In this document: positions 7,047 through 45,672 of the stretch, piece by piece
Position numbering within the stretch: position 1 is the stretch's first letter
How the letters are laid out: the number at the start of each line of letters is the position of its first letter
Origin: Paenibacillus taihuensis
GTDB taxonomy: Bacteria; Bacillota; Bacilli; Paenibacillales; Paenibacillaceae
Direction: 5' to 3'
Assembly (NCBI RefSeq): GCF_003386535.1
Contig: NZ_QTTN01000006.1
Coordinates: 62,001 to 126,000, forward strand
DNA: 64,000 nt
Notes under the pieces: model-generated
Told to the model about the DNA's origin: nothing
What the model saw: only the letters and a program-made list of their open reading frames with translations
Databases searched by the model: none
Program-made: the position numbers and the translations under genes

Positions 7047-7220
7047 GAAGTCCGGCAGACCAGCTACATTCGCGGAGAAAGAACAAAATCGCCGAAAGAA
7101 GTCCAGCAGACCAGCTACATGAGGTGGAAATGGGAAAATACAGCCGAAGAAGTCCAGCAGACCGGCTACATTGGCGGAGAATGTGGGAAATCGCCGAAAG
7201 AAGTCCAGCAAACCAGCTAC
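7047..7220. repeat. array A: four 21-nt units at an exact 51-bp period
   Basis: The units begin at 7047, 7098, 7149 and 7200 and read GAAGTCCAGCAGACCAGC followed by TAC, with one or two changes per copy. The 30-nt spacers are A-rich and contain AAAATCGCCGAAA or a close form. There is no reading frame of interest. It sits between the DUF1648 gene and array B. Spacing is 51 bp in all three steps. Confidence 0.9.
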
Positions 7221-7239
7221 ATGTGGCTCAATTCAGTAT

Positions 7240-7413
7240 GAGTGGTACGTGGTACCACACATTAGAGAAAATCGCCACCAAAACGTCAAAGAGTGGTACG
7301 TGGAACCACACATTAGAGAAAATCGCCACCAAAACGTCAAAGAGTGGTACGTGGAACCACACATTGGCGAAAATCACCCGCAAAACATAAAAGAGTGGTC
7401 CTAGGGACCACTC
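7240..7413. repeat. array B: four palindromic units at 51-bp period, last one the hemL terminator
   Basis: The units begin at 7240, 7291, 7342 and 7393. Each has arms GAGTGGT and ACCAC around a short centre (GAGTGGTACGTGG, then AACCACAC). Unit four is a full palindrome, GAGTGGTCC-TAG-GGACCACTC. The spacers contain GAGAAAATCGCCACCAAAA, similar to those of array A. The array lies downstream of the minus-strand hemL. Confidence 0.9.
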
Positions 7414-7417
7414 TTTC
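7390..7417 (-). terminator. terminator of hemL, formed by the last unit of array B
   Basis: On the minus strand AAAGAGTGGTCC pairs with GGACCACTCTTT around a 3-base loop and is followed by TTTTA. The hairpin is symmetrical and could also stop plus-strand transcripts. Confidence 0.75.
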
Positions 7418-7424
7418 GTCTTAT

Positions 7425-8741
7425 CTACCGCGCCATCTGAGCAAAAGCTCGCTCCGCCGCCGCGATCGTCGCGGCGATATCCTCGCTCGTATGCGCCGTG
7501 GTGAGGAACCACGCCTCATACTTGGACGGGGCGAGGCAGATGCCTTGGTCGAGCATCAGGCGGAAGAACTCCGCGAAGCGCTCGCCGTCGGTGTCCTGCG
7601 CCTCATCGTAGTTCGTCACCGGATGGTCGCAGAAGTGCGCGGAGAACGAGCCGCGGATGCGGTTAATGGTCAGCGGAATGCCATGCTTATCCGCTGACCC
7701 TTGCAGCGCGGACGCGAGCTCTATCGCTTGCGCATCCATCCGCTCGTACACGCCTGGCTGCTGGAGCACCTCCAAGCAGGCGATGCCTGCCGAGATGGAG
7801 GCCGGGTTGCCGGCCATCGTGCCCGCCTGATAGGCTGGGCCGAGCGGCGCGACCTGCTCCATCACATGCTTGCGGCCGCCGTAGGCGCCGATCGGCAAGC
7901 CGCCGCCGATGATCTTGCCAAGCGCCGTGAGATCTGGCCGGGTGGCAGCGTGATCCGGGAACGCGCTGTAGGTCTGCGCGCTGCCGTAATGGAACCGGAA
8001 GGCAGAGATGACTTCGTCGTAGATGACGAGCGCGCCGGCTTCACGTGTCATGCGGCACAAGCCTTCCAGGAAGCCCGGCTCCGGCATCACCATGCCGAAG
8101 TTGCCGACGATCGGCTCGACCATAACGGCGGCCACATCGTCGCCGAAGGTCTCAAGCGCGACGCTTAAGGCCTCTAGATCGTTGAACGGAACGGTGATGA
8201 CTTCGTTCGCGATACTGACCGGGACGCCTGCGCTGTCCGGGATGCCGAGCGTCGAAGGGCCGGAGCCTGCGGCAACGAGCACGAGATCGGAGTGGCCGTG
8301 GTAGCAGCCGGCGAACTTGATGATTTTGCTGCGCTTCGTGTAGGCGCGAGCGACGCGGATTGTCGTCATTACGGCCTCGGTGCCGGAGTTGACGAAGCGA
8401 ACCTTGTCCATCGAAGGGATCGCTTCCTTCAGCATGCGGGCAAGCGTAATTTCAAGCTCGGTCGGCGTGCCGTACAGCGTGCCATTCGCAGCTGCACGAG
8501 TGATGGCTTCGGTAATATGCGGATGCGCATGGCCGGTAATGATCGGGCCGTACGCACATAAGTAATCAATATAGCGGTTATCGTCGACGTCCCAGAAGTG
8601 CGCGCCTTGCGCGCGTTTCATGAAGACAGGCGCGCCGCCGCCAACGGCTTTGAAAGATCGGGACGGGCTGTTGACGCCGCCGACAATATGTTCGAGCGCT
8701 TCCGCATAGAGCTGTTCGGAGCGCGGTCGTTGAATAGTCAT
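7425..8741 (-). CDS. hemL: glutamate-1-semialdehyde 2,1-aminomutase
   Basis: 438 residues, the usual length. It converts glutamate-1-semialdehyde to 5-aminolevulinate in the C5 route to haem and other tetrapyrroles, using PLP. Visible motifs are [15 protein letters not shown] at the N-terminus, [36 protein letters not shown], and [16 protein letters not shown], which holds the PLP lysine. The start at 8741 has AGGAGG about 12 bases upstream. Bacilli often have two copies (HemL and GsaB). This one stands alone and not in a hem operon, so it may be the second, GsaB-like copy. Confidence 0.92.
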
Positions 8742-8802
8742 AACGAATTAGAACCTCCTGGCCGGATAATATTCCTTATTGTACCGCTACGAATGCGGCG
8801 AC

Positions 8803-8852
8803 ACAACAAAGGAGAGGCGAAACGGACCTGTCCAGTCCATTTCAGCCTCTCC
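8803..8852 (-). terminator. terminator of the LCP gene
   Basis: On the minus strand GGAGAGGCTGAAATGGAC pairs with GTCCGTTTCGCCTCTCC (plus-strand arms 8811-8827 and 8835-8852), followed by TTTGTTGT. It lies between the stop of the LCP gene and the start of hemL. Confidence 0.75.
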
Positions 8853-8862
8853 TCAACCGATT

Positions 8863-9972
8863 TTATTTGCTTGTGCCGTTCGCAGTGTTCCCGCTGTTCG
8901 TACTCGTCGAATTCGAACCCGTACCCGCGTTAGTGCCGCCGTCCGTGCTTGTGCTGCCATCCGCAGCCGGATCTGTTGCAGCAGGCGTGTTGTCTTTTGC
9001 CAACTCGTCTTGGACGAAAGCGAGCAGCTTACCATCGTCGCTAACCGCGAGCACGGAAGCGCCGCCGACCTTCTCGCCGCCAAGCAGCTCCATCGGAGGG
9101 ACTTGCGTTTGACCGGCTACGCTCGTCTTAACGCCTAGCTCAGCCAGCTTCATCATATCGGTCAATTCGATGTTGGATTCTACATACGGCTGAATGCTGT
9201 TCACGATTTTCTTCATTTTTAGCAGGTTCCAGCCGTTCTTCAGCTCATCGGCTACCGCAGAGAGCAGCTTGCGCTGACGCTCTGTACGTGTGAAGTCGCT
9301 CATCGCATCGTGACGGAAACGCACATATTGGAGCGCTTTTGTACCGTCAAGATCTTGAATGCCTTTCTTCAAGTGAATGTCGTAACGGTTGCCGTCGGCA
9401 TTATCGACGTAGTTCATATCCTTCTCGACATCGAAATCCTTGATGCCGCCGAGCGCATCGATCAGAGACTTGAATCCTTCGAAGTCGGTATACACATAAT
9501 ATTGAATATTAAGACCGAGCAAGTCGCCGATTGTCTTCATGGCCAGGTTAGGACCGCCAAGCGCGAGCGCTGTGTTAATTCGGCCATCGCCATGTCCGTC
9601 AATGTCTACATACGTATCACGCAGAACAGAGAATAAGTGCGCTTTCTTCGTAACCGGATCTACGGAAACGACCATCATCGAGTCGGAACGTGCTGTTTCA
9701 TTCTTCTTCAGACCGCGGTTATCGCCGCCCATAATGAGAATGTTGACGCGTTCTGTACCTGTCCATTCCGGCGGCTTCTCTTCCGGTTTAACTTCGAACT
9801 GTCCGAATCTGGACTCATCCTGCGGCTTGCTGATTCCGTCCAAGCCTTGTACGACTCCGACACCTTGATAAATAAAGAAACCGACAACCATGAGGATGGC
9901 TACACTTACGCCGAGTAGCGCCCATTTCCATGGCTTTCTCTTTTTGGGTTGCTGAGAACGTGCACGTGCCAT
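8863..9972 (-). CDS. LytR-CpsA-Psr (LCP) family cell-wall glycopolymer ligase
   Basis: 369 residues with the ATG at 9972, after AGGAGG at 9985-9990. The upstream extension of the open frame has no ribosome site. A basic N-terminus and one membrane helix (about 15-35) precede the LCP domain. The domain has NILIMGGDNRG, ARSDSMMVVSVDP, FSVLRDTYVDI, ALQYVRFRHDAMSDFTRTERQ and other core motifs with conserved Arg and Asp residues. The C-terminal 45 residues are a Thr/Ser/Gly/Asn-rich tail. LCP enzymes transfer teichoic acids or other phosphate-linked polymers from lipid carriers to peptidoglycan outside the membrane. The polymer substrate is unknown here. Confidence 0.9.
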   Translation of the reverse strand: MARARSQQPKKRKPWKWALLGVSVAILMVVGFFIYQGVGVVQGLDGISKPQDESRFGQFEVKPEEKPPEWTGTERVNILIMGGDNRGLKKNETARSDSMMVVSVDPVTKKAHLFSVLRDTYVDIDGHGDGRINTALALGGPNLAMKTIGDLLGLNIQYYVYTDFEGFKSLIDALGGIKDFDVEKDMNYVDNADGNRYDIHLKKGIQDLDGTKALQYVRFRHDAMSDFTRTERQRKLLSAVADELKNGWNLLKMKKIVNSIQPYVESNIELTDMMKLAELGVKTSVAGQTQVPPMELLGGEKVGGASVLAVSDDGKLLAFVQDELAKDNTPAATDPAADGSTSTDGGTNAGTGSNSTSTNSGNTANGTSK

Positions 9973-10128
9973 TTTCGTTGCTTTCCTCCTAAGACCGAAT
10001 TTTAATTTTTTGTATAGTCGAGTAAACGTGCCGACATTTTTGGTTAACCCTATAGCTTTACATATCTTAAAATTATAAAATGGATTGTCGTAGAGAAGCA
10101 AGTTTTATCTGCTAGAAACGAATAACGG

Positions 10129-10150
10129 CGACATTTCCCAGGAAATGTCG
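10129..10150. promoter_or_regulatory. perfect 22-bp palindrome before the ABC exporter operon
   Basis: CGACATTTCC (10129-10138), centre CA, GGAAATGTCG (10141-10150). The two-base centre is too tight for a good RNA hairpin, so this is more likely a DNA operator for a dimeric regulator. It lies directly before the AGAGGAG ribosome site of the ABC operon. The regulator is not identified. Confidence 0.55.
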
Positions 10151-10176
10151 AAAAGAGAGGAGCTGAGCATGATAAT

Positions 10177-11301
10177 ATGCTAGCAATAGATGTAAGAGAT
10201 TTGCGCAAGCAGTTTCAAGTTCAGAAGAACCGCGTAGGTCTTGGCGGTGCGCTAAAAGACCTGTTTAAGCGCGAGTATAATGATATTACTGCGGTCAAGG
10301 ACATTTCGTTTCAAATTCCGCAAGGTGAAATTTGCGGCTACATAGGCGAGAATGGCGCCGGAAAGTCGACGACGATCAAAATGCTTACAGGCATTCTAGT
10401 CCCAACCTCCGGTCATCTGCAGGTCAACGGGTTCGTGCCGTACAAGGAGCGGGAGAAGTTCGTACGCGGCATCGGCGTCGTATTCGGTCAGCGCAGTCAG
10501 CTGTGGTGGGATATCGGCGTTATCGAGTCGTTCCAGCTGCTGCGCAAGGTGTACCGGGTGCCGGAGGCGGAATTCCGTCAAAGGCTCGATGAATTGGTTG
10601 AGCGTCTTCACCTCGGTGATCTGCTAAATCGCCCTGTGCGTAAGCTCAGCCTAGGTCAGCGGATGCGCTGCGAGCTTGTAGCTTCGCTGCTGCATAACCC
10701 ATCCATAGTGTTTCTTGACGAGCCAACGATCGGTCTGGACATTGTCGTGAAGACGGAGATCCGTGAGTTTCTGAAAAAGATCAATAGGGAGCATGGCACC
10801 ACAATCCTGCTTACCACACATGATCTGCAAGACATCGAAGCACTTTGCTCGCGCGTTATTATGCTCGACGACGGCCGCATTATCTACGACGGCGGCCTTG
10901 ATGAGCTGAAAGCGAGATGGAGCAAAGGACGCGAGCTGCAGTTCCAATTCGGCGAATTGCCGCCGCTTGATGTACTGAAGCAGCTGACCGAAGGTCTGCA
11001 TGGCGTTACATGGACGGTCGACAACGAGCTTACCGCAACAATGTGGCTTCCGCATGAAGTGAACGTATCGGATGCGCTGGCACGTGTCGTGGGCAGCCGC
11101 GCGGACATTCGCGACATCAAGATCATGGAGACGAACACCGATGAGATCGTTCGTGAAATTTACCAATCCGGCTCTGCTTCGAGCGAGGCGGCAGATAAGC
11201 TGAGCCAGCCGTCAAGCGCGGAGGAAGCAGCGAACGAGACAGAGAGCGGCAAAGCGACAGTCGCTGCCGCGTCTGACGAGGAGAAGGTGCAGCAGCGATG
11301 A
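10177..11301 (+). CDS. ABC transporter ATP-binding protein (COG4586 type)
   Basis: 374 residues. Walker A is GENGAGKSTT, the signature is LSLGQRMRCELVASLLH, and Walker B is IVFLDEPTIGLD followed by TTHDLQDIEALC. The stretch VFGQRSQLWWDIGVIESF after the Q-loop is characteristic of the COG4586 ATPases that work with two ABC-2 type permeases. The C-terminal 45 residues are an acidic Ala/Ser/Glu-rich tail beyond the usual domain. It overlaps the first permease by 4 bases. The substrate is unknown; related three-gene sets have been linked to export of toxic compounds. Confidence 0.88.
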   Translation: MLAIDVRDLRKQFQVQKNRVGLGGALKDLFKREYNDITAVKDISFQIPQGEICGYIGENGAGKSTTIKMLTGILVPTSGHLQVNGFVPYKEREKFVRGIGVVFGQRSQLWWDIGVIESFQLLRKVYRVPEAEFRQRLDELVERLHLGDLLNRPVRKLSLGQRMRCELVASLLHNPSIVFLDEPTIGLDIVVKTEIREFLKKINREHGTTILLTTHDLQDIEALCSRVIMLDDGRIIYDGGLDELKARWSKGRELQFQFGELPPLDVLKQLTEGLHGVTWTVDNELTATMWLPHEVNVSDALARVVGSRADIRDIKIMETNTDEIVREIYQSGSASSEAADKLSQPSSAEEAANETESGKATVAAASDEEKVQQR

Positions 11302-12092: not shown

Positions 12093-12096
12093 GGCA

Positions 12097-12888: not shown

Positions 12889-12908
12889 TTTCAAAGGTTA
12901 GTTAGGGG

Positions 12909-14093: not shown

Positions 14094-14102
14094 ATTCATG
14101 TG

Positions 14103-15243: not shown

Positions 15244-16817
15244 AGCAGGCCCGTGCAGCAGGGAAGCCGGGCAAAGGTGCGCTGGCGGGACAGTCGGGAG
15301 ATGCGGGGAAGCCAAGCAGAGCTGGGAAGAAAGGCGAAGCCGGGAAGAGCGGCGACGCGGGGAAGCAAGCGAAGAAGAACGAGGCTGGCAGGTCAAGGCT
15401 GCGCAGCAGGCATGTGGCTCGCGCGGTGACGCTGCTTATGTTCGCCATCTGCATAGCGGCCCTCTATGAGCGAGGCGGCGCGGTCGAATGGCTGCTCGTC
15501 ATTGTGGTGGGGGCGATTGTTTTTGGCAGTATGATTTTGCCCTATATGACGGTCGGGAAAATCTCGGTGGAGCGCTCCGTATCGGAAGCATCTCAGCTTA
15601 CGGATGGCGGCGAGCTGCAGGTCACGTTAACGCTGCGGCTGAGCGGGCTGCTGCCGTTTATGTGGGTGAGTGTTCGCGAGGAGCTTGCGCGTATAGGGGA
15701 GCAGACAGGTAAGGCGGGAAATGCAGGAAATGCAGGAAATGAAAAAGCAGGTCAAGTGATTAGGGCTAGAGCTCCTGGCGTATCCGTACTTGTCCAGCAT
15801 GCGTTCCTGCCAGGCTTCGCTCGTCAATTTCAGCTGAGCTATACCGTTAAGGGACTGACGCGCGGGGAGATGCTTTTTCAGCCGGTGCACGTGTCTGTGG
15901 GGGATATGCTTGGCTTGACGGTACGAGGGTTCGCTATCGACTGTTCTCCCGGTACGGTACTCGTAAAGGCTGCGCCGCCGCTGGGAGAGACTTTCGTGAA
16001 TCTGCCTGGGCATAGGCCTGGCGTACAGACGACCGGCGAACATCTGGTTGTTTCATTAGGCGGTCAGATGCAGACGCTGGCGGCACGCTTTGGCCGTCAT
16101 GGGGCAGGACCTGATGTGCGTTCCTATATGCCCGGCGATCCGCTCGGACGCGTCGACTGGCGCGCGATGGCGAGGGGACTTGGCCTTCAGACGCGCACCA
16201 GCAATGCGGAGTATAGCACCGAGTTGATCATACTGCTGGAGACGAGCGAGCAGGCGTACGGCGGAGACATCCGCTTGTTCGACGCGCATGTCGGCCGTGC
16301 TGCGCAGCTGATCAAGCAAGCGCATCAAGAAGGCAAGAGCGTTCTGCTGCTGAAGAACACTGCGGACGATCTCGGGCTGCAAGTCGATGCGGGTGATCGA
16401 GTCGCAGCACGAAGAGCTGAAGAGCAGCTCGCCCGGCTGGGGTGGGGCAGGTCAGAATCGATGTCGCTGCGCCTGTCGGATGCGGTAGCAAGTCTGACAC
16501 GAGGGTCTGCGCTAATTTGCCTCACGGCAGGTGAGCTGCAAGGGGATTCAACTAGCGAAGCGGGTATGATCATGTACAGCGCGAAGCTTGCTGCTGTCCG
16601 TGGCGTACAGCTGTACGTATTGCTGTCGGAGGCACGGGATATGCTGCCAGAGTATGCGGAGCAGAAATGGCGCGAACGGCTGCAAGGCGCAAAATGCAAA
16701 GTGCGAGCGATGCCTGTTCCACTAAGCTACCGTGGTATGGTGCCTGGGGTAACGGAGTTAACGATGACAACGGGCAGGGAAGGAGGCGTTATCGATGTCG
16801 GCAGTGCAAGGAGCTGA
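15240..16817 (+). CDS. DUF58 membrane protein with a Gly/Lys-rich N-terminal extension
   Basis: 525 residues. The first 50 or so residues are low complexity, rich in Gly, Lys, Ala and Asp ([18 protein letters not shown] and similar). Two membrane helices follow (about 60-100). The DUF58 motif [19 protein letters not shown] lies near residue 300, and a VWA-like fold follows. A short [12 protein letters not shown] insert is present near 160. It couples to the MoxR ATPase gene (ATGA overlap) and overlaps the transglutaminase gene by 23 bases. Confidence 0.85.
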
Positions 16818-19587
16818 CAGCGCGCAGGGCGGCGTGAAAGAGAACCAGAAGCCGAAGCGGCAGCAGGAGCGGGAAAGCTTGCATTTCTTCGGCTTCATGC
16901 CGAGGCGGCTGGTGACGAGCCTGTTGCTGTTTGGACTTATTGCGGAGTGGCTGCTGCCGCTCGTGCAGCTGAAGGATTTTACAGAGCTGAATGAGATTCG
17001 CCCGCTGCTCGCCGCAGTCGGTCTGTTTCTTGCCGTCGGTCTGGTCGTGCCGCCAACCTGGGCTTCCGTGCTGCTCAACGCCGTCATTACGGCAGGGACT
17101 GTGCTTGTCATGTTTAGTGTACATTATGGTTCCTGGCATGAAAGTGTCACGGGGCTGCTAGAGGCGCTGAGACATGATGCCATTACAGTGGCGAGCGGCA
17201 AAATCATGCTGAGCGGAGAGACGCGCACCTTGCTCCTAGTCAGCGGGCTTGGGATGATGACCGTCGCCGTGCAATCGCTAATTTGGCTGCGGCAGTGGGG
17301 GCTCGGATTGGCGGGGCTGACCGCGGTGTATTTGCTGCTGCTCTATAGCTTCCTGGGGCTCGATGTGCTGCCGGGATTGAAGCGGGTATGCGCAGAAGGG
17401 CTGCTGCTCGGCGCGCTCGTGACGGTGCCGCGGCTGGAACGGCTGCTGGGCAGTTCAACGTTATTCGACGGCCGTGCCGTCAAGAAATCGTTGGCAGGCT
17501 GGGCGGTGAATTGGTGGAATGGCGCAGCATGGCTCGCTGTTGTGGTGCTGGCCGCAGCAATCGTTGCGTCGGGAAGCTTGGCGAAGCCGGTTGTTGCGTC
17601 CGAGCCAGCCCCATGGGCGGCAGATGCCATGGATTGGGGGCAGAGGCGGCTGCTGGAGAATTATTCTGGTTTCAGCCATTCAGCCAGTTCCAAAACAGTT
17701 GCGGAAGAAGCGATGGCAGCCACAGGCTTAGGCGAACCTAGTGCGACAGGTTACGGCTTCGATGATTCCGCGCTTGGCGGTCCGATTACGCAGGATCATA
17801 CGGCGCTTTTCACCGTGGCAGAGAAGGAAGCGTCGTATTTGCGGGGCGAGAGCAAATCGTTCTATACCGGCAAAGGCTGGGAGCAGGTCGAGCATGCATG
17901 GCATACGGTGAGCGTGTCGGAATGGCAGGCGGACCATCGGGATGTGATGGGGAGCGGCGAAAATGGCGTAAGTGAGAGTGAGCGGAGTCGGAGTACGGGT
18001 GGCCAGGTCGATGAACCGTCTGACGATGTTTTCGTTCAGACGGTTACGACAGCTTTTCCGGCTGCGGGTTGGCCTCTGTTTGCTGGCAGCGCGGATGCCA
18101 AGGTGACGGATATCAAGACGGTGAACGGATCGGGCGACACGACTTCGTATCGGCAAGACGCAGTGACCGGAGCGCTCTATCCGGCGTCGGAGGAGGATCG
18201 GGTCGTCCGTTATACGGTGGCGTCCGTGATGCCGGATGAAGCGCTGAAGCGGCTTCGGCAGGTGGAGTCTTCTGTTGATGCGTCGGCAGGGGTGGAAGAC
18301 GGTGACGGCGTGGTAGGCGGTGTGGCGTCGAGTGATGAAGATACGTCGGGTGCGTCAAGTGCATCAGGTGTATCAGGTGCGTCGAGTGCGTCCAGTGTGT
18401 CGAGTGCATCAAGTGCATCAAGTGCATCAAGTGCATCGAGTGCAATAGACGGAGAGAAGAATGAATATGTTGAAACGGCGGCGCTCGATGCCGCCTATAC
18501 GCAGCTGCCAGACAAGCTGCCTGCGGAGATTGGTACGCTCACGGCGGAGATTTTGGCGGCGGCGGGAAATCCGACGAGCCGCTACGAGCAAGTGAAAGCG
18601 GTCGAGGGATATCTCCGCAGCAACTACAAGTACACGCTGCAGCCGAAGGCTACGGCATCGACAGCTGATTTCGTCGATGATTTCCTGTTCAATCAGCGGG
18701 AAGGCTACTGCGTGCACTTCGCTTCGGCGATGGCGGTCATGCTGCGGACGCAGGGGATCCCTGCGCGGTATGTGAAGGGTTTTGCGCCGGGCGAGCCTAC
18801 GGAAGAGTCTGCGTCCGGCGAGGCGGGGATCTACACCGTGCGTGCAAGTGACGCGCACGCTTGGGTAGAGGTGTTCTTCCCGGGCGTCGGCTGGGTTCAG
18901 TTCGAGCCGACGCCGGGCTTTGCGGCACCGGGCAGCGGTGCCGCCGGCGAAGCCTTATCGTCTGCTGCGGCAGGCGATGCGGCGAAGCCTGCACTTGCCG
19001 CAAGCGCTGACGGCGCTGCGGCCGGCGGCGAAGCCGCTGGCGCCCGCGCGCTGGTGAATCGCGCGGCTGCAGCGGCGCAGCGCGGGGCCGATGCCCTCGC
19101 GCAAGCGGCGCGAAGCGCCATGGCGGCCCCGCCGTGGGCGAAGGCCTCCGTCGCCGCAGGCGCCACGGGCGCCGCCGGCCTCGCGCTGGCGGCGCGGCGC
19201 GGCCGCGAACGCTTCGCGTTCGCCAAGGCGCTGCATCGCTATGGCAGCGCCCTCGAGGCGGGCCGGCATACAGCGGCCCGCCGGCAGTTCCTCCAGCTCG
19301 CGGATGCCTGCTGGCGCGAGCTGTACAAGCGGTGCGGTGCGAAGCCGATGCACCGCACGGCGCGGGAGTATGCGGCGGAGCTGAGCTTGCCGCCGCATAC
19401 CGCGCAGCTAGTCGCGGAGCTGGTGCGCTGGGACGAAGCAGCGTGCTTCGACGTCAGCTGGCAGAACCGGCCGACGAAGCAGCAGCTGACCGAGCTGGTG
19501 TCGAAGCTCCAGTCGATTCATGAGAGATCGGGTACGGTCTCTCAGCATCAAACAGCTGCGGATCCGAAGCTGAGAGACCCTATATGA
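16795..19587 (+). CDS. TgpA-like membrane transglutaminase (DUF3488, transglutaminase core, DUF4129)
   Basis: 930 residues. Up to six N-terminal helices (about 35-270) are followed by an extracellular transglutaminase core. The core includes [19 protein letters not shown] and [20 protein letters not shown] with the catalytic cysteine, then [18 protein letters not shown] with the histidine, and FEPTPGF. An Ala/Gly-rich stretch leads to another helix and a C-terminal DUF4129 region near [19 protein letters not shown] Ser/Ala-rich run made of [13 protein letters not shown] repeats sits near residues 518-548. The last 20 or so codons lie inside repeat array C, whose first two palindromes fall within or over the end of the gene, so the C-terminus may have been extended by the repeats. 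Confidence 0.88.
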
Positions 19588-19706
19588 TCTCTCGACCAGC
19601 AAAGCACCTGTTATTATGCTCTTAACTGTTCTGAGAGGCCTAATACGATCTCTCAGCACGAAAACGCCACAAAAAAGAAGCCGAGAGATCGTATTTGATC
19701 TCTCGG
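19521..19706. repeat. array C: four palindromes spaced 50, 61 and 50 bp
   Basis: The units start at 19521, 19571, 19632 and 19682. Each has arms GAGAGATC and GATCTCTC or a close variant around a 6-base centre (GGTACG-like, TATAT-like, GTATTT). The first lies inside the transglutaminase gene, the second spans its stop codon, and the fourth is the bidirectional terminator. The spacing pattern is nearly the same as in the two pur-operon arrays. Confidence 0.9.
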
Positions 19707-19712
19707 CTTCTT
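19675..19712. terminator. bidirectional terminator between the transglutaminase and bactofilin genes
   Basis: GAAGCCGAGAGATC (19677-19690) pairs perfectly with GATCTCTCGGCTTC (19697-19710), with an A-run before and TTCTGTCTT after it. It serves two convergent genes and is unit four of array C. Confidence 0.8.
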
Positions 19713-19717: not shown

Positions 19718-20836
19718 TTACCAATTCTTCAGTAAATCCGCGGCATCCGAAGCACTGCGGCCGCTCGATGAATACACGTCGTCAGATGCATCGCTCACAG
19801 TCTCAATAGCTTCAACAACTTCCACACTAATATCTACAGTATCTTCCGCGACACTCAAGCTCTCAACGGTCTCAACGGGCTTAATTGTCTCTTCATGATC
19901 CACTGTTCCCATTGTCTCAACCGCCTCAACGCTCTCAACTGTCTCAACGGTCTCAACCGCCTCAACCGCCTCAACCGTCTCATCATGCTCAACTACTTCA
20001 GCCATACTATCTTCCAAGCCAACCGCAATCTCTTCAGCCGCATCCGCGACTTCTTCCCGAGCTTGAGCAGCCGTCTCATTCTTTATCTCAACTGCTTCTG
20101 CGAGCAGTATACCGCTAAGCGCTGATCGCTCCCCCGCACTCAGACCCTCGTTCAACCTGTTGTTTGCCAGCTGTGCTGCAGCTGCATTTTCGCCGGACTC
20201 CTTCGTGCCGCCGGCAATGCTATGTATGAAAGCTCTTCCGCTCTCTCTTAGCGGATCTATATTATCTTTGGCGGTCTCCGTTGTTGCTATCACCTCAAAT
20301 GTACCATCTGCCTCATCAGCCGACGGCTTTTCAATCGCGCGATAGCTGATTTTCTTCGGAATCGCCGGCACTTCGCCTTCTGCCAGATTGCGACGGTCGA
20401 AGCCGCTGCGGCGTTCCGGACCGTGATAGGGCAGAGTGGAGACGCGGCGATCTGCACCGGAGCGGCGCTCGGTCAGAGCGGGCTCGTCCTGATCCATTGC
20501 GCTGCTGCCTTGCAGCAAGCCGCCTTCTTCGATCGTTAGCGCTGCTGCCGTCATATTACCGTACAGCTTGCCTGTCGACATAATCGTAAGCTTGCCTGTA
20601 ATCGTAACGTTGCCGTTCACTTGACCAGCCAGAACAACGTTATTAGCGGTTATATTCGAGACGGCAAAGCCGCTTTCTCCAAGAATGACGTCGCCTTCGC
20701 ACGAAATATCGCCGCGCAGCTGGCCTTCCAGACGCAGGCTTCCCGCTGAACGAACGGTACCTTCTACGATGGTGCCTTCACCAATAAAGGTATCAGTCAT
20801 TTTGGAGCTAATCTTGTCTTTTTTCCACTTGAACAT
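19718..20836 (-). CDS. bactofilin with a long acidic Val/Glu-repeat tail
   Basis: 372 residues. The bactofilin domain (about 13-115) has the right-handed beta-helix pattern: DTFIGEGTIVEGTVRSAGSL, EGQLRGDISCEGDV, AGQVNGNVTITGKL. Bactofilins form nucleotide-free polymers and recruit cell-wall enzymes. A tail of about 250 residues follows. Its last 100 residues are built of VEAVETVE-like units (DNA repeats 19850-20000), acidic and probably extended or coiled. Normal bactofilins are 100-200 residues, so the tail is unusual. The gene overlaps the 3' end of the M23 peptidase gene by 29 bases, the common bactofilin/M23 pairing. Confidence 0.9.
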   Translation of the reverse strand: MFKWKKDKISSKMTDTFIGEGTIVEGTVRSAGSLRLEGQLRGDISCEGDVILGESGFAVSNITANNVVLAGQVNGNVTITGKLTIMSTGKLYGNMTAAALTIEEGGLLQGSSAMDQDEPALTERRSGADRRVSTLPYHGPERRSGFDRRNLAEGEVPAIPKKISYRAIEKPSADEADGTFEVIATTETAKDNIDPLRESGRAFIHSIAGGTKESGENAAAAQLANNRLNEGLSAGERSALSGILLAEAVEIKNETAAQAREEVADAAEEIAVGLEDSMAEVVEHDETVEAVEAVETVETVESVEAVETMGTVDHEETIKPVETVESLSVAEDTVDISVEVVEAIETVSDASDDVYSSSGRSASDAADLLKNW

Positions 20837-33914: not shown

Positions 33915-34083
33915 GCATGCATGAACGTCCTCCGATCGCTGTTGTACCTGGAATTCCTTTGAACAGTAAGTGATTAGAGGTAGGAATTCTTGTACAAAGG
34001 CGCAAATGACGTGCGTAGCTTAGGCAACGCACATCATTTCGCCTAGGCGAACGCTAGCGCTTCTTCGGACCGTTCATGCCTGC
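33915..34083 (+). ncRNA. structured intra-operon element, copy 1 (purB-purC gap)
   Basis: The core at about 33938-34002 begins CGCTGTTGTACC and ends TTGTACAAAGGCG. Its arms (TTGTAC..GAATTCC and GGAATTC..GTACAA) form a long hairpin around a conserved loop with GTAAGTGATTAGAGG. A second hairpin follows (33999-34016 with 34027-34043). The whole is closed by GCATGAACG (33919-33927) with CGTTCATGC (34071-34079) and TCCGA (33931-33935) with TCGGA (34065-34069). The core recurs at 40272-40336 with a covarying pair, but the closing stems differ. Function unknown; it could be a cis RNA, a processing site or a small mobile repeat. Confidence 0.55.
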
Positions 34084-34165
34084 TCCGTCACTCAACCTTA
34101 AGATCAACTGCAAAACTGAAACCTGCAACAAAATCAATACCAAGCCTAAAGGAGAGGGAACAGGA

Positions 34166-35053
34166 ATGACACAAGCGTTGTCCACGGCTGTGGGATATGT
34201 GAAAGCGCCGCTGCTTTATAAAGGCAAAGTGCGTGAGCTGTACGATCTTGGCGAGCATTTTCTGATCGTCGTAACGGATCGCATCAGCGCGTTCGATTAT
34301 GTGCTTGATCCGGCCGTGCCGGAGAAAGGGAACGTGCTGAACCGATTGTCGGCGTTCTGGTTTGAGCAAACGGCTGAGATGATGCCGAATCATATTGTAC
34401 ACACTGACGTGTACAAGCTTGGCGACCTCGTGACTGAGCCTGAGCTGCTGAAGAACCGCATCATGGTTTCGAAGAAAGCCGAGCGAATCGATATTGAATG
34501 TGTCGTTCGCGGCTATATCACCGGAGGCGGCTGGAGACAATATACAAAAACTTCGGCAATTAACGGCATCGAGCTTCCAGCGGGACTTCGCAAGAACGAA
34601 CGCTTCGAGAAGCCGATCTTCACGCCGGCTGCGAAGAACGATGTCGGCCATGACGAAGACATTCCTTTCGAACGGATGAAAGAGATGGTTGGCGCTGAAT
34701 TGGCTGAAGAGCTTCGCGACAAGAGCATTGCGCTCTATGAATTCGCTGCGGCGCGCTGCGAAGAGCGCGGCATCATCCTCGCGGATTGCAAATTCGAATT
34801 CGGACTTATCGATGGCAAAGTCATCCTGATCGACGAGATCTTCACGCCGGACTCCTCGCGTTTCTGGGCTAAAGACAAGTTCGCCTACGACGTCGAGATC
34901 GACAGCATGGACAAAGAACCGGTTCGCACGTATCTTCTTGGTTCCGACTGGGACAGAGACAGCAAACCAGATCCATTGCCGCAAGCGGTTGTCGAAGAAA
35001 CAACAAATCGTTACCTAGCTATCTACAAGGCGTTGACGGGCGAGGACTTGTAA
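34166..35053 (+). CDS. purC: phosphoribosylaminoimidazole-succinocarboxamide (SAICAR) synthase
   Basis: 295 residues. I chose the ATG at 34166, which follows AAAGGAGAGGG; the open frame extends 30 codons further upstream without a ribosome site. LYKGKVRELYDLGEHFLIVV, TDRISAFDYVL, VRGYITGGGWRQY and DEIFTPDSSRFW are SAICAR synthase motifs. It joins aspartate to CAIR. The length is that of the longer SAICAR synthase type rather than the roughly 240-residue B. subtilis type. It stands between two long gaps and so is translated separately. Confidence 0.95.
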   Translation: MTQALSTAVGYVKAPLLYKGKVRELYDLGEHFLIVVTDRISAFDYVLDPAVPEKGNVLNRLSAFWFEQTAEMMPNHIVHTDVYKLGDLVTEPELLKNRIMVSKKAERIDIECVVRGYITGGGWRQYTKTSAINGIELPAGLRKNERFEKPIFTPAAKNDVGHDEDIPFERMKEMVGAELAEELRDKSIALYEFAAARCEERGIILADCKFEFGLIDGKVILIDEIFTPDSSRFWAKDKFAYDVEIDSMDKEPVRTYLLGSDWDRDSKPDPLPQAVVEETTNRYLAIYKALTGEDL

Positions 35054-35067
35054 GCCACTCTCGCGTT

Positions 35068-35255
35068 CTATAGTGGATTTATCCAATAGAGAACGGCATT
35101 TATAGCTCAAATCGCATCCTATAATGGAAAAATCCACTCATTTCTGCTCGAAAAAGCCCTTTTGGCCTGTTTTGAACGAAAATGAATGGATAAATCCAAT
35201 ATAGCCAAGCAAAATCGCTGAATTTGCACAAAATGTGTGGATTTATCCAATATAG
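35068..35255. repeat. array D1: four palindromes spaced 51, 65 and 51 bp
   Basis: The units begin at 35068, 35119, 35184 and 35235, of the form CTATAGTGGATTTATCCA followed by a complementary TATAG-like arm. The spacer after unit 3 is GCCAAGCAAAATCGCTGAAT and on. The array is homologous to D2 at 45486-45672 (same unit, same order, same spacing). It lies right after purC and has no terminator T-run, so the operon can read through. Confidence 0.9.
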
Positions 35256-35601
35256 CCGGTGACCCAGCAAGCGTATCACGCACTCGGAGCCAGAACGGCA
35301 CGAAGTGCCGTTCAAGTAACAAGGACTCGTGAGCGAGGCAAGATGGCTCGATCACAAGAAACCCGCGAGCCAAGCAAAGATGGCTCGCACCATATAAATC
35401 AGGCGATGCAAGAGGCGGCGAATAGCCCCGCGAAGCGAGCCCATGATGCTCCCAAGAGCATCATGGAGAAATGTTTCAAGAAGTTACCGCAAGTAATTGT
35501 TCAAAGTTTCCGTTCGTTCAACAGCGACGTAGTCCAACATACCCGCGTTTTGCGAAGCTATTCCAACCCCAATTTCACATTTTCCAGGAGGCGACCCCCC
35601 A
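35256..35601 (+). other. purC-purS gap with several hairpins, no gene seen
   Basis: Three short perfect hairpins follow array D1: AACGGCA/TGCCGTT (35294-35312), GCGAGCCA/TGGCTCGC (35365-35388) and CATGATGCTC/GAGCATCATG (35442-35465). None has a T-run. The open frame across this stretch has poor codon use and no ribosome site. The last 15 bases carry the AGGAGG site of purS. Confidence 0.6.
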
Positions 35602-35844
35602 ATGAAGGCTAAAGTCTACGTAACAATCAAACAAAACGTGCTCGACCCGCAAGGCAGCGCAGTACAAGGCGCATTGCATTCCATGGGCTTCGATGAAGTC
35701 GGCAAAGTTCGTATCGGCAAATTTCTGGAGCTCAACCTGAGCACATCGGATCGCACGGAAGCAGAAGCGCGCCTGACGGCAATGTGCGAGAAGCTGCTGG
35801 CGAACACGGTTATTGAAGACTACCGTTTTGAATTGGAGGGATAA
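35602..35844 (+). CDS. purS: FGAM synthase, PurS subunit
   Basis: 80 residues, ATG after AGGAGG. KAKVYVTIKQNVLDPQGSAV and LHSMGFDEVGKVRIGKFLEL are typical. PurS bridges PurL and PurQ in the three-part formylglycinamidine ribonucleotide synthase. The gene is 3 bases from purQ. Confidence 0.96.
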   Translation: MKAKVYVTIKQNVLDPQGSAVQGALHSMGFDEVGKVRIGKFLELNLSTSDRTEAEARLTAMCEKLLANTVIEDYRFELEG

Positions 35845-40227: not shown

Positions 40228-40229
40228 TT

Positions 40230-40387: not shown

Positions 40388-40496
40388 CGGGGTATAAGAA
40401 CAGATTATTCAACCGTCGTTTACCCGACTGGTTGGCATATAAAGTGATAAGGCAAAGGACGAAACCTTTGCAAAAAACCATTAAGGAGTGACTATC

Positions 40497-41540: not shown

Positions 41541-42169
41541 TGACGGACGGGAACTCGCGGCTGCGCATCGCCGTATTTGCATCCGGCAACGGGGGCAATT
41601 TTCAGGCGCTTGCCGAAGCAGTCCGCGAGGAAGCGTTCCCCGCAGAGATCGCGCTGCTCGTATGCGACAAGCCGGCGGCGAAGGTCGTGCAGCGCGCTGA
41701 GGCGCTGGACGTCAAGGCATATCTTTTCGACCCGAAGTCGTATGCTTCCCGCGAAGCTTGCGAAGAAGAGATTGTCGGCCTCCTGCGACGGGAAGGCATT
41801 GATCTGATCGTGCTTGCCGGGTACATGCGGATCATTACCGACGTGCTCGTGAAGCCCTACTATGGGCGCATCATTAACGTGCACCCGGCGCTTCTGCCTG
41901 CTTTTCCGGGTGTGCGAGGCGTTCGTCAGGCGCTGGAATACGGCGTCAAGGTGACGGGTGTAACCGTCCACTTCGTGGATGGCGGCATGGACACGGGGCC
42001 GATCATGATGCAGCAGGCGGTCGAAGTCCAAGACGACGATACGGAAGAAACGCTCGGCGAGCGAATCCATGCGGTGGAGCACGAGCTGCTGCCGCTGGCG
42101 GTCCGCTCAATTGCTGAAGGACGCGTCGCGCTGGACGGACGCAAGGTTACGGTAAGAAGCGGCGGCTAG
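41540..42169 (+). CDS. purN: phosphoribosylglycinamide formyltransferase
   Basis: 209 residues. IAVFASGNGGNFQAL, LAGYMRIITDVLVKPY, NVHPALLPAFPG and VHFVDGGMDTGPI contain the Asn-His-Asp catalytic set. It adds a formyl group from 10-formyltetrahydrofolate to GAR. It is coupled to purM. Confidence 0.96.
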   Translation: MTDGNSRLRIAVFASGNGGNFQALAEAVREEAFPAEIALLVCDKPAAKVVQRAEALDVKAYLFDPKSYASREACEEEIVGLLRREGIDLIVLAGYMRIITDVLVKPYYGRIINVHPALLPAFPGVRGVRQALEYGVKVTGVTVHFVDGGMDTGPIMMQQAVEVQDDDTEETLGERIHAVEHELLPLAVRSIAEGRVALDGRKVTVRSGG

Positions 42170-42213
42170 TTCCGCGCGAAGACGGGATACGAGAAAGGAC
42201 GAAGAACGAATTT

Positions 42214-43395
42214 ATGAGCGATATTAAAGAAATTGCTTTGCGATACGGGATGAACCCTCACCAGAAGGAAGCGAAAATCTACTCCGCAGACGGCAAGGCG
42301 CTTCCGCTTACTGTCGTTAACGGCGACCCTGGCTTCATCAATCTGCTTGACGCATTGAACGCGTACCAGCTTGTGCGCGAGCTGCGCCAAGCAACAGGAC
42401 TTCCTGCGGCGGCTTCGTTCAAGCACGTAAGCCCAGCGGGCGTTGCGGTATACGCGCCGATGTCGGCAGAACTGGCAAAGGCTTACTTTGTTGACGGCAT
42501 GGAGCTGTCGGAGCTGGCAACGGCATACGCACGTGCCCGCGGCGCGGACCGTATGTCTTCGTTCGGCGACGCTGCCGCGCTCAGCGACATCGTTGACGCA
42601 TCGACGGCGCAGCTGCTCAAGCGTGAAGTGTCTGACCTTGTCGTAGCGCCAGGCTATACGCCGGAAGCGCTCGACATTCTGAAGCAGAAGAAGGGCGGCA
42701 AGTACCTGATTCTCCAGATCGATCCCGACTATGTGGCGGATCCAGTCGAAACGCGCACGCTGTTCGGTATGAAAATGCAGCAAGAACGTAACAGCGCCGT
42801 TCCGGATGCTTCGGTATTCGATAAAGTCGTTACGGCGAACAAAGAGTTGACGGAGGGCGCGAAGCGCGACATGCTCGTTGCGCTTGTTACGCTGAAATAT
42901 ACGCAATCCAACTCGATCTGCTATACGCTGGACGGTCAAACGATCGGCATCGGCGCGGGTCAGCAATCGCGTATTCACTGTACGCGTCTTGCAGGCGACA
43001 AGGCGGATCGCTGGTATCTTCGCCAGCACCCGGCTGCGCTGAACATGAAGTTCCGCGAAGGCGTGTCGCGCGCGGAGCAGAACAACGCGATCGACCTGTG
43101 GCTCGAAGACGAAGTAACGCCGGTTGAACAAGCAGCTTGGGAGCGTTGCTTCGAAAAAGTGCCCGCGCGTCTCACTCGCGAGCAGAAGCGTGAATGGTTG
43201 AACGGTCTGCAAGGCGTTTCTTACGGTTCCGATGCGTTCCTGCCATTCCGCGACAATCTCGACCGGGCAAGCCGCAGCGGCGTGAAATACGTCATTCAAG
43301 CAGGCAGCTCGCTTCGCGACGAAGAGGTCGTGCAAGCGGCGAACGATTACGGCATGGTCATGGTATACTCGGGCGTACGCCTGTTTCATCACTGA
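42214..43395 (+). CDS. purH: AICAR formyltransferase, single-domain PurH lacking IMP cyclohydrolase
   Basis: 393 residues, against about 512 for the usual bifunctional PurH of Bacillales. The sequence starts directly in the formyltransferase half (EIALRYGMNPHQKEAKIY) and contains the catalytic SFKHVSPAGVAVY (Lys-His) and RMSSFGDAAALSDIV. The N-terminal MGS-like cyclohydrolase domain is missing and there is no room for it in the 44 bases before the start. It transfers the formyl group from folate to AICAR to give FAICAR. Ring closure to IMP must be done by another protein, most likely the next gene product. Confidence 0.9.
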   Translation: MSDIKEIALRYGMNPHQKEAKIYSADGKALPLTVVNGDPGFINLLDALNAYQLVRELRQATGLPAAASFKHVSPAGVAVYAPMSAELAKAYFVDGMELSELATAYARARGADRMSSFGDAAALSDIVDASTAQLLKREVSDLVVAPGYTPEALDILKQKKGGKYLILQIDPDYVADPVETRTLFGMKMQQERNSAVPDASVFDKVVTANKELTEGAKRDMLVALVTLKYTQSNSICYTLDGQTIGIGAGQQSRIHCTRLAGDKADRWYLRQHPAALNMKFREGVSRAEQNNAIDLWLEDEVTPVEQAAWERCFEKVPARLTREQKREWLNGLQGVSYGSDAFLPFRDNLDRASRSGVKYVIQAGSSLRDEEVVQAANDYGMVMVYSGVRLFHH

Positions 43396-43416
43396 TAGGA
43401 GTAGGAGGCGACGAGG

Positions 43417-44175
43417 ATGTCCACGAACACAACGACAAAATGGAAGACGCTCGCGGATGCAACCGTACAGCGTTTGCAAGAGAACAGCTATCCAGGGCGC
43501 GGTATCATCATCGGCTTGACGCCGGACGCGACGCGCTTCGTGCAAGTCTATTGGATCATGGGACGCAGCGAGAACAGCCGCAACCGTGTATTCATTCCGG
43601 AGAAGAACGGCTTCCTTCGTACGGAAGCTCGCGATCCAGCGAAGCTGACTGATCCATCGCTGATCATCTATTATCCGCTTCGCCATGAAGGCGGCGCGCA
43701 TATTGTTACGAACGGCGACCAGACCGATACGATCTGGGAAGCGATCAAAGCAGGCGGTACGTTCGAAGGTGCGCTCGCAACACGCACGTACGAGCCGGAT
43801 CCACCGAACTTTACGCCGCGTATCTCGGGTATCGTTGATCTGAACGATGCAAAGAACGCATACAAGCTGTCGATTCTGAAATCGAACGAGAACGACGAAT
43901 CGCAGACGAAGCGTCAATATTTCCACTATGAGCAAGCGATTCCGGGTTACGGACACTTCATCTCCACGTATGTGGGCGATGGCAATCCGCTGCCTTCGTT
44001 CGCCGGCGAGCCGCAAATGGCGCCGTTGTTCGACGATGAAGAGAAGACGGCACGCTTCTACTGGGACATGCTTGATGCGGACAACAAAATCTCGCTGCTC
44101 GTGAAGTCGATCCGCATTAGCGACGGAGAGTCGACGCTGACGGTCGTGAACCGTTCGGCCGAAGGAGGCGCGTAA
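43417..44175 (+). CDS. purO: PurO-like (archaeal-type) IMP cyclohydrolase
   Basis: 252 residues, start after TAGGAGTAGGAGG. LQENSYPGRGIIIGLTPDAT is the PurO-family opening, and YPLRHEGGAHIVTNGDQTD and PRISGIVDLNDAKNAYKL are compatible with the NTN-hydrolase fold of archaeal IMP cyclohydrolase (COG3363). It lies exactly between a formyltransferase-only purH and purD, and supplies the activity missing from that PurH: FAICAR to IMP. The family call is from memory of motifs and needs a profile search; the pathway argument is strong. Confidence 0.78.
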   Translation: MSTNTTTKWKTLADATVQRLQENSYPGRGIIIGLTPDATRFVQVYWIMGRSENSRNRVFIPEKNGFLRTEARDPAKLTDPSLIIYYPLRHEGGAHIVTNGDQTDTIWEAIKAGGTFEGALATRTYEPDPPNFTPRISGIVDLNDAKNAYKLSILKSNENDESQTKRQYFHYEQAIPGYGHFISTYVGDGNPLPSFAGEPQMAPLFDDEEKTARFYWDMLDADNKISLLVKSIRISDGESTLTVVNRSAEGGA

Positions 44176-44178
44176 ACG

Positions 44179-45444
44179 ATGCGTATTCTCGTTATCGGCA
44201 GCGGCGGTCGTGAGCATGCGATCGTATGGGCGCTGAACAAGAGCGATAAAGTAAGCAAAATCTTCTGTGCGCCTGGCAACGCCGGCATTGCAGAGCTGGC
44301 GGAATGCGCGCCGATTCCGGTTAACCGGTTCGACGACCTGATCCAGTTCTCATGCGACAACGAGATCGACCTCGTTGTCGTCGGCCCGGATGATCCGCTT
44401 GCGGACGGCATCGTCGATGCGTTCGAAGAGCGCAACGTTCCGATCTACGGACCGCGGAAGAATGCGGCAGAGATTGAAGGCAGCAAGATTTTCATGAAAA
44501 ATCTGCTGAAGAAATACAACGTTCCGACTGCGAAGTACGAGACGTTCACCGATTATGAGACGGCACTGACTTACTTGCGTCAGCAAGAAATTCCTGTCGT
44601 TGTCAAAGCGGACGGACTCGCGGCAGGCAAAGGCGTTACCGTCGCTTTCTCGATGGAGGAAGCGGAGGAAGCGCTGCAAGGGATGATGGTCGGCAAAGTG
44701 TTCGGCGAATCCGGCGGACGCGTCGTCATCGAAGAGTTCCTCGAGGGACAAGAGATGTCGATTCTCGCATTCGTCGATGGCGAGACGGTTCGCGCGATGG
44801 TGCCTGCTCAAGACCATAAGCAAGTCTTCGACAATGACAAAGGCCCGAACACAGGCGGCATGGGTACATACTCCCCGCTGCCGCATATCGATCCGGCGCT
44901 TGTCGAAGATGCGATCGAGAACATCATCAAGCCGACGGCGCGTGCGATGGTCAGCGAAGGCCGTCCGTTCCGCGGCGTTCTCTTCGCAGGTCTGATGATG
45001 ACGAAATCTGGAGTCAAGACGATCGAGTTCAACGCGCGCATGGGCGATCCGGAGACGCAAGTCGTGCTCCCGCGCCTGAAGACCGATCTGCTCGATATTA
45101 TTCTCGCTTCGATGAACGGAAGACTCGATCAGCTTCAGATCGAGTGGAGCGACGAAGCAGCGGTGTGCGTCATCGCCGCATCGGAAGGCTATCCGGCACC
45201 GTATCCGAAAGGCCGCGTCATCACTGGCCTGGAAGCTGCTCGGGCGCAAGGCGCGCTCGTGTTCCACGCGGGCACTGCGCTTGCGGACGGCAATATCGTC
45301 ACGAACGGCGGACGTGTGCTCGGCATCGTCGGCCGCGGCCGCGATATTGCGGAAGCGCGCGCGAAGGCGTACGAGGCCGTGAGCGCGATTCATTTTGAAG
45401 GTATGCACAGCCGTACCGATATCGCTGCGAAAGCATTGCGATAA
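44179..45444 (+). CDS. purD: phosphoribosylamine-glycine ligase
   Basis: 421 residues, 3 bases after the PurO-like gene, with GAAGGAGG inside the latter. MRILVIGSGGREHAIVWAL, VVVKADGLAAGKGVTVAFS, GPNTGGMGTYSP and IEFNARMGDPETQVVLPRL are ATP-grasp GAR synthetase motifs. It joins glycine to phosphoribosylamine. It is the last gene of the operon. Confidence 0.97.
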   Translation: MRILVIGSGGREHAIVWALNKSDKVSKIFCAPGNAGIAELAECAPIPVNRFDDLIQFSCDNEIDLVVVGPDDPLADGIVDAFEERNVPIYGPRKNAAEIEGSKIFMKNLLKKYNVPTAKYETFTDYETALTYLRQQEIPVVVKADGLAAGKGVTVAFSMEEAEEALQGMMVGKVFGESGGRVVIEEFLEGQEMSILAFVDGETVRAMVPAQDHKQVFDNDKGPNTGGMGTYSPLPHIDPALVEDAIENIIKPTARAMVSEGRPFRGVLFAGLMMTKSGVKTIEFNARMGDPETQVVLPRLKTDLLDIILASMNGRLDQLQIEWSDEAAVCVIAASEGYPAPYPKGRVITGLEAARAQGALVFHAGTALADGNIVTNGGRVLGIVGRGRDIAEARAKAYEAVSAIHFEGMHSRTDIAAKALR

Positions 45445-45485
45445 ACGAGTTATTGGCAGGAAGCCGTTTTCTCGGAGCTCTGTAG

Positions 45486-45672
45486 CTATATTGGAAAAAT
45501 CCATTATAAAACAGGCTAAAAGCAGAAAATAACAGCCTATATTGGAAATATCCACTCATTTTGCGTCGATGGCCGTTATTTCGGCTATTTCGCCGAAAAT
45601 GAATGGAATAATCCAATATAGCCAAGTGAAATCGCTGATTTCAGCACAAATGAGTGGATTTATCCACTATAG
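45486..45672. repeat. array D2: four palindromes spaced 51, 64 and 51 bp
   Basis: The units begin at 45486, 45537, 45601 and 45652, with CTATATTGGAAAAATCCA-type sequence; the last is a full palindrome around GTGGATTTATCCAC. The spacer after unit 3 (GCCAAGTGAAATCGCTGATT) matches that of D1. It lies between purD and the operon terminators. Confidence 0.9.

Follow-up and report, generated by a model that had tools for sequence, protein, structure and literature searches.

Arrays of regularly spaced sites with a 10.1-bp A/T phase in the chromosome of Paenibacillus taihuensis

Repetitive extragenic palindromes (REP) and bacterial interspersed mosaic elements (BIME) are described as extragenic, species-specific palindromic units in regular arrays, which insertion sequences use as targets (PMC2817692, PMC1525189). 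Gyrase of Escherichia coli, which cuts BIME-2 elements, is described with a 130-bp motif whose flanks vary in GC content with a period of 10.75 bp, read as DNA lying on the protein surface and likened to nucleosomes (PMC6379681). RemA of Bacillus subtilis, a ring protein proposed to wrap DNA, protects AT-rich stretches of 7 bp with 3 bp between them over 107-159 bp; as described, its sites lie upstream of promoters and are poorly conserved. The same source cites octamers of the Lrp type, including LrpC, as examples of nucleosome-like wrapping, right-handed for LrpC by the title cited (PMC8481266). Here we describe arrays of short DNA sites with a fixed helical spacing in Paenibacillus taihuensis. 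Five of them (A, B, C, D1 and D2, the last two being copies of one family, D) lie in the window, the stretch of 64,000 nucleotides that was analysed (contig NZ_QTTN01000006.1, positions 62,001 to 126,000).

Many such elements, about 190 bp long and typically with four sites of about 24 bp, lie in the gaps between genes. The sites of these arrays keep their spacing throughout the genome, and the A/T content of the spacers oscillates in phase with them. In family D, sites, spacing and phase have been retained after dispersal of the element to many places, and the families of sites turn over between species. We estimate at about 60% the probability that these are chromosomal DNA elements built for bending or wrapping around a protein core, with sites five or six helical turns apart; the bound protein, the wrapping and any function are proposed here from sequence alone.

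The genome, a draft of 6.79 Mb in 85 contigs, was searched by BLAST with D2, which gave 108 match rows at E<=1 (one element can match on both strands; 40 of 104 candidates were scored), the full-length matches being mostly 69-77% identical. Queries with C and with A/B gave 60 and 47 match rows, respectively, and a half-element model of D gave 127 matches at E<=1e-3, in which both halves of many elements are counted. Across 40 D arrays, the outer step is 51 bp in 76 of 78 cases (50 and 52 bp once each) and the middle step 62 bp in 33 of 39 (61 bp in four, 63 and 67 bp in one each), with one merged step of 122 bp. Whole-element BLAST, the source of most of these loci, is biased toward equal spacing; among the 11 arrays matched by a pattern for one unit or retrieved in the A/B search (L075, L089, L090, L093, L095, L097, L099, L101, L114, L117 and L118), the outer step is 51 bp in 19/21 and the middle step 62 bp in 10/11. 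Similar values were obtained for the other families, whose steps were taken as neighbour distances of up to 120 bp: 51 bp in 37/42 for B, 14/14 for E (a further family with unit CTCCAGGTATCTACATT and period 51) and 8/11 for A, 50 bp in 16/18 for the CTAACGAA units, and 50-51 bp in 7/8 for the TAACGGTT units. The B and E steps are not independent, because long tandem arrays, one of 13 units, are included. For C, 35 of 39 steps in this genome and 33 of 40 in two relatives, G001 and G018, fall at 49-52 or 61-62 bp.

The spacing also emerges when no unit sequence is used. A de novo detector based on geometry only, with steps of 49-53 bp compared with five control step ranges, found 11 four-site arrays in the window plus 400 kb of sampled DNA of the same genome (464 kb), and none in each of the five controls; the 20 sampled stretches without the window held seven (controls 0, 0, 0, 0, 0). 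A histogram of palindrome distances, likewise made without unit sequence (400 kb, threshold 8), peaks at 51, 113 and 62 bp, with 9, 9 and 8 pairs. Sixty-five stretches from 19 genomes of the genus (1.3 Mb) gave 19 arrays against 1, 2, 1, 6 and 0 in the controls. The 44 stretches sampled regardless of arrays contributed seven (controls 0, 1, 0, 3, 0) and the 20 picked beside purD or hemL contributed 12 (controls 1, 1, 1, 3, 0); one stretch picked for a D-like match (L183) held no de novo array. No array was detected in 11 stretches from other genera of the same taxonomic family, where the controls gave 0-2. Coding repeats were rejected as the source of the arrays, because 50, 61 and 62 are not multiples of 3; the sole hit in a coding frame among the 11 of this genome (window position 18962) has no A/T phase (score -0.01). 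A scan for this spacing elsewhere had been named beforehand, in an earlier sequence-only reading of the window, as the test that might refute it; run on samples, it found the spacing kept.

The second line of evidence is the composition of the spacers. To align D without gaps, we limited the search to elements with outer steps of 51 bp (38 found) and excluded five with another middle step. In the remaining 33 copies, A/T content oscillates along the element with a period of 10.1 bp and is flat outside. The spacers alone, with the sites masked, show the same period: power is 1.13, against a mean of 0.13 for column shuffles and with 0 of 1000 shuffles reaching it, and the best period is 10.14 bp (95% 10.10-10.16), the A/T runs being in register with the sites. 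AA/TT dinucleotides have a period of 10.2 and peak near the site centres, GC, GG/CC and CG run in antiphase to them (+31 against -152 degrees), and TA is depleted to 0.58 of expectation. An A-rich spacer stretch, AAAATCGCC, which had been taken as a conserved motif, turned out to be one instance of these A/T tracts. When A/T-rich spacer columns are picked in one half of the D copies, the other half keeps A/T in 70% of its non-consensus bases in these columns, where 1/3 would be expected if all changes were equal, pointing to a phase that is kept, at least on its A/T side, while bases change. D is the sole family covered by this split-half test of shared ancestry, and it is also the one in which G/C antiphase and retention of A/T were measured.

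The phase itself extends to other families. We compared eight sets of spacers with jittered alignments, namely C of this genome, C of the relatives (C is thus counted twice), B, A, E, the CTAACGAA and TAACGGTT units, and a set from the relative G016. With neighbouring units unmasked, seven of the eight have their best period at 10.0-10.2 bp (p<0.01), and the G016 set, of four windows, gave p=0.29. With neighbours masked, the amplitude at 10.14 bp next to the unit beats jitter in 8/8 sets (p<=0.02), and A/T-rich positions fall within 50 degrees of the unit centre in 7/8. Taken singly, all 38 D elements and 23 of the 41 de novo arrays exceed the 99th percentile of 964 overlapping intergenic windows without arrays. 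The suggestion of the sequence-only reading that these are arrays for a DNA-binding protein, with all sites on one face of the helix, is supported by the steps kept genome-wide and by the A/T phase in register with them.

How D came to be dispersed can be read from its copies. Identity among the 33 copies is 74% in the sites, 46% in the spacers and 26% outside, and the ends are sharp, at CTATA...TATAG; family D has been copied as a whole element. The TGGA/TCCA cores differ in 3.5% of comparisons and the spacers in 54%, and in nearest-neighbour pairs the figures are 4% and 39%, arguing for constraint after insertion. The earlier suggestion of a self-spreading hairpin family that copies nearby terminators thus holds for the spreading, both in this whole-element dispersal and in the species turnover described below; its hairpin and terminator part does not, D having neither RNA covariation nor strand preference, and nothing suggests that terminators are copied.

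The sites change between species and the frame does not. A search for the exact D unit pattern gave 105 matches in this genome and a single one in 58 relatives. The named collection yielded one locus, in Cohnella laeviribosi, with D-like cores at positions 257, 308, 371 and 422 (51/63/51), mismatches numbering 0 to 3; its A/T phase score is 0.25. The C pair pattern has 30 matches here, 88 in G001, 68 in G018 and one each in G005 and G185; the other 192 of 197 genomes of the taxonomic family have none, and the reversed control pattern has 0. Arrays of the relatives use other units, among them GCTGTAGCAAGG-n5-CCTTGCTACAGC (G016), CTAACGAATCGTAGAGGTCTTATTT (G003, G014), TAACGGTTGCCACAGAGGCTATTT (G005, G014) and AATGTTGCATATTGTGCAACATTT (G014).

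The same turnover is seen at single sites in G001 and G018, whose aligned blocks are mostly 78-91% identical to this genome. The A/B site carries A-type and B-like arrays there, in a different composition, and the C site one and two TAACGGTT units. All 12 D sites that we read have either no array or another family in G001 and/or G018: D1 and D2 have no array, and four of ten further sites hold another family in at least one relative. These four are L002 (C arrays in both), L015 (an A array in G001), L287 (CTAACGAA units in G018, none in G001) and L289c (one C unit in G001); L008, L013, L014, L018 and L288 correspond to a short gap in G001, and L289a to a short gap in G018, where alone it was read. 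Arrays of other families also lie downstream of purD in G005, G014 and G016; loci on the minus strand, which in this case display the opposite flank of the gene, were left out of the count.

Such a pattern recalls miniature inverted-repeat transposable elements (MITEs), non-autonomous mobile elements whose sites would bind a transposase at two inverted ends and whose phased DNA would aid the transpososome, with no function for the host. Like MITEs, the arrays are short, dispersed and non-coding; D has a shared spacer consensus and sharp ends, its sites are empty or otherwise occupied in relatives, and its halves are in inverted order (forward-forward/reverse-reverse), as in several families of the relatives. 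Unlike MITEs, they contain no transposase and have left no detectable target duplication: no direct repeat of 3-9 bp was found when the ends of the 33 copies were set at CTATA/TATAG plus 0-2 bp, and repeats of 2 bp occur 1, 2 and 5 times at three offsets (2.1 expected). Among the 127 half-element matches, inspected by eye in the 85-contig draft, no pair brackets a gene as the halves of an autonomous parent would. One array repeats its unit 13 times in tandem at 51 bp, which is not the structure of a transposon end, and the gap between core and spacer divergence in nearest-neighbour copies is not expected of an inert MITE. Searching 50,697 phage and 72,556 plasmid records with D2 also gave no match. 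We consider a MITE-like nature unlikely. Phage or plasmid origin of D was rejected on the lack of such matches, the exact D unit pattern being likewise absent from viral contigs; the loose C-unit pattern matched three viral contigs, once each.

Other repeats meet D. D unit cores are joined by two distinct repeats that are probably insertion sequences (L023 and L299, G000:C10:200-420; L030 and L298, G000:C70:200-420). One of them sits twice at the same place before TAAATCCA, and the other occurs at two D elements, inside or next to the core; one carries an open reading frame with a sub-threshold match to DUF4372, and the other has no family match. At 14 contig ends, the last 600 bp contain a D match. 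Together, these contig ends and core-joining repeats make D sites look like landing sites, comparable to what is described for REP (PMC1525189). Ribosomal RNA operons, considered as a reason for D matches near contig ends, were rejected: none was found in the seven loci scanned, where Rfam reported one tRNA and one group II intron.

A second possibility is that the palindromic arrays are BIME-like, i.e., strong sites for gyrase or another topoisomerase that absorb transcription supercoils at gene 3' ends. Like the RAYT-associated REP/BIME of Gammaproteobacteria, as these are described, our arrays are extragenic, present in many copies and regularly spaced, with palindromic, species-specific units and, in D, repeats in or beside unit cores that are probably insertion sequences. 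Their context also fits. Using simple open reading frame calls, we classed 35 of the 38 D elements as lying between convergent (14), tandem (16) or divergent (5) genes, three being unclassed and six of the 38 overlapping a called frame; the 188 background gaps of at least 60 bp comprise 35 convergent, 114 tandem and 39 divergent, so that convergent genes are over-represented around D. The gyrase motif, as described, shares the periodic alternation of AT and GC, and gyrase cuts BIME-2 (PMC6379681). However, its period of 10.75 bp is not that of the D spacers, whose power at 10.75 is 0.02 of the best, so a strong gyrase site was rejected, and a conserved 24-bp site every 51 bp is absent from the motif by its description in that source. 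A match to the Y1/RAYT transposase (PF01797) is lacking in this genome and in 20 of 21 others of the genus, with a single weak match in G016 (24.1 bits, cut-off 23). The 5' tetranucleotides of REP, GTAG or GGAG, were not seen by eye in the C and D units, which start with CTGAG and CTATA; the A and E units contain GTAG on the other strand, in arrays that are direct tandems. On the lack of RAYT in the genome and of the tetranucleotide in C and D units, REP/BIME membership was rejected; the fixed 51/62 steps, the 10.1-bp A/T phase and the several unrelated unit families within one genome are further differences. A BIME-like role is, in our view, improbable.

It is also conceivable that the arrays act as RNA, as tandem hairpins in 3' untranslated regions serving as terminators, roadblocks or sites for RNA-binding proteins. 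Fold z-scores are low (A/B -3.0, C -7.2, D1 -4.7 and D2 -8.2), as inverted repeats must give, some inner pairs of C covary, and the last B unit resembles a terminator. In D, however, RNAalifold on 38 copies found a change on both sides in 0 of 14 consensus pairs; the W4 centres of units U2 and U3 pair less than when shuffled (33/132 against 42.6), and spacers 1 and 3 pair exactly as when shuffled (270/825 against 270.0). Beside tandem genes, D lies nine times in the same and seven times in the opposite orientation, i.e., without strand preference, and D1 stands inside a series of genes that continues on the same strand. Visual inspection shows no hairpin in the A and CTAACGAA units, and no array of the window has an Rfam match at the gathering score. 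The use of both orientations and the lack of covariation point to duplex DNA; RNA structure was rejected for D and is possible for C, and RNA elements are a very improbable account of the arrays as a whole.

In the wrapping reading that we favour, each site of about 24 bp would be bound by a sequence-specific protein. At palindromic sites with an A/T centre, such as TGGA-W4-TCCA in D, this protein would probably bind as a dimer. Spaced five turns (50-51 bp) apart, with about six turns (61-63 bp) between the pairs of the D and C types, the sites would bring all contacts to one face. A-tracts every 10.1 bp or so, alternating with G/C, may narrow the minor groove on the side facing the core. The site-reading protein might change its specificity or have several paralogues around a constant core, which would give one geometry and many families of sites. 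Whole copies of D would have entered intergenic gaps, often next to the 3' ends of genes, with subsequent selection on site, spacing and A/T phase. The role of the elements may be local: they might hold a DNA domain, for example, or take up supercoils where genes end. The helical repeat of DNA in solution is 10.5 bp; the D period is shorter, on the side of the nucleosome and not of gyrase, from which we infer a wrapping sense opposite to that of gyrase. An octamer of the Lrp/LrpC type consists of four dimers, so that four palindromic sites per particle would be natural; the spacing of Lrp/LrpC sites is about three turns, shorter than in our arrays.

It is possible, and we put it forward tentatively, that bacteria have in these arrays an equivalent of positioned nucleosomes. 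Members of a clade would share a particle that wraps about 190 bp at gene ends, with a 10.1-bp rotational signal written into the DNA; its site-reading part would change specificity fast, both between species and within them, so that whole site families are replaced and the particle geometry is constant. Nucleosomes are known to combine sequence-encoded rotational phasing over about 190 bp with a fixed spacing of protein sites, and gyrase does so in a loose sense. Should the arrays be protein-bound, they would be positioned particles in a bacterial chromosome that can be counted from sequence, and local DNA wrapping encoded at bacterial gene ends would become testable. The turnover of site sequences under a constant geometry, a changing lock in a fixed frame, is in itself an evolutionary puzzle.

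Several observations weigh against wrapping. Eighteen of the 41 de novo arrays fall below the 99th percentile for A/T phase, among them C at 19521 and the false hit in coding sequence at 18962. The phase of E relative to its chosen unit centre is -154 degrees, that centre being arbitrary. G/C-rich columns of D are weak in the split-half test, with G/C retained in 39% of non-consensus bases, and part of the D phase must be inherited, because the copies share spacer ancestry. As RNA, the palindromic units of B and C can form hairpins too, and inner stem positions of C covary (0.71 against 0.31 expected, and 0.96 against 0.63); this is compatible with hairpins and equally with subfamilies that are each recognised by a different dimer. 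RemA-like genes, present here, occur in 39/39 genomes searched; they do not track the arrays, and as candidates they explain nothing about which genomes have them. Finally, nuclease-resistant segments of E. coli are described as depleted of A-tracts (PMC4761138), so phased A-tracts do not in general mark bacterial DNA that is covered by protein.

With regard to novelty, the arrays share one sequence feature with RemA regions, namely AT-rich tracts that recur every 10 bp along a stretch of more than 100 bp, and the 51-bp pattern of sites is found in the arrays and not in RemA sites as described (PMC8481266). Arrays of clustered regularly interspaced short palindromic repeats (CRISPR) were rejected, because the D halves are inverted and the sites vary between families. 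We found no such arrays described for Paenibacillus in the open-access literature, subscription papers being largely outside this coverage. B. subtilis is said to carry ten copies of a 190-bp repeat; a literature search for it found no description. We rate this class of element as categorically new, working like known wrapped sites, because the known families that can be tested each fail a defining feature, with the exception of RemA, whose sequence feature is present.

All five arrays of the window were re-located where the sequence-only reading had placed them. Array A (7045..7224, plus strand) has four direct GAAGTCCRGCAGACCRGCTACAT units, the fourth with AAACC, which begin with GAAGTCC at 7047, 7098, 7149 and 7200 (steps 51/51/51); the family occurs at other sites of the genome too. 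Array B (7240..7416, plus strand) begins its units with GAGTGG at 7240, 7291, 7342 and 7393 (51/51/51), the first three being GAGTGGTACGTGGWACCACACATT and the last GAGTGGTCCTAGGGACCACTC, a terminator-like hairpin on both strands. A DUF1648 gene (6235-6996, plus strand) and hemL (7425-8741, minus strand) flank the two arrays, their 3' ends converging on them. Array C (19521..19712, strand undefined) consists of four palindromic GAGAGnnnnnnnnnnnnCTCTC units with steps 50/61/50, between a transglutaminase-domain gene (16795-19587, plus strand), whose frame enters the array, and a bactofilin gene (19718-20836, minus strand). The array has seemingly displaced the stop of the former gene, which by eye lies near window position 19520 in G001 and G018 and at 19587 here.

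Element D1 (35066..35257, plus strand) has core-to-core steps of 51/62/51 and the unit order palindromic end unit, forward, reverse, reverse. It lies between purC (34076-35053) and purS (35602-35844, identified by eye), with purQ and purL downstream on the same strand, so the proposal that all arrays sit at the ends of genes or operons is corrected here in that D1 does not close an operon. Element D2 (45484..45674, plus strand; 51/61/51) is downstream of purD (44179-45444) and upstream of a polysaccharide-deacetylase-like gene (45899-46939). The steps first given for A, B and C and the outer steps of D1 and D2 are confirmed; the middle steps of 65 and 64 bp first given for D1 and D2 were measured start-to-start on asymmetric units and correspond to 62 and 61 bp between cores. 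The units were first described as mostly palindromic; by eye A, E and CTAACGAA are not palindromic over the whole unit. Four units per array, true of these five, is not a general rule: C arrays can be longer, and one B-type tandem array has 13 units at exactly 51 bp (L062; G000:C39:8267-8811), unlike the four-unit D elements.

Small minus-strand open frames cross both D elements (35119-35373 at D1, 45299-45625 at D2), with no evidence for genes. At the gathering score, the only Rfam matches in the window are two purine riboswitches (RF00167; 26256-26356 and 30612-30712), upstream of the purine gene region. Elsewhere in the genome, a group II intron (RF00029; L068 1740-1810, minus strand) follows shortly after a B array near a contig end. 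Further unit families include F (GAGTATCCCTSAGGGCTACACATC), seen like E at the loci examined, and ATAAGTGC-n6-GCACTTAT, from one sampled stretch. At L127:19043, a second four-unit element (CTAAGGAATCGTACGGTGCTTATT, with inverted halves) stands about 90 bp after a D element, which indicates that families can stack in one gap.

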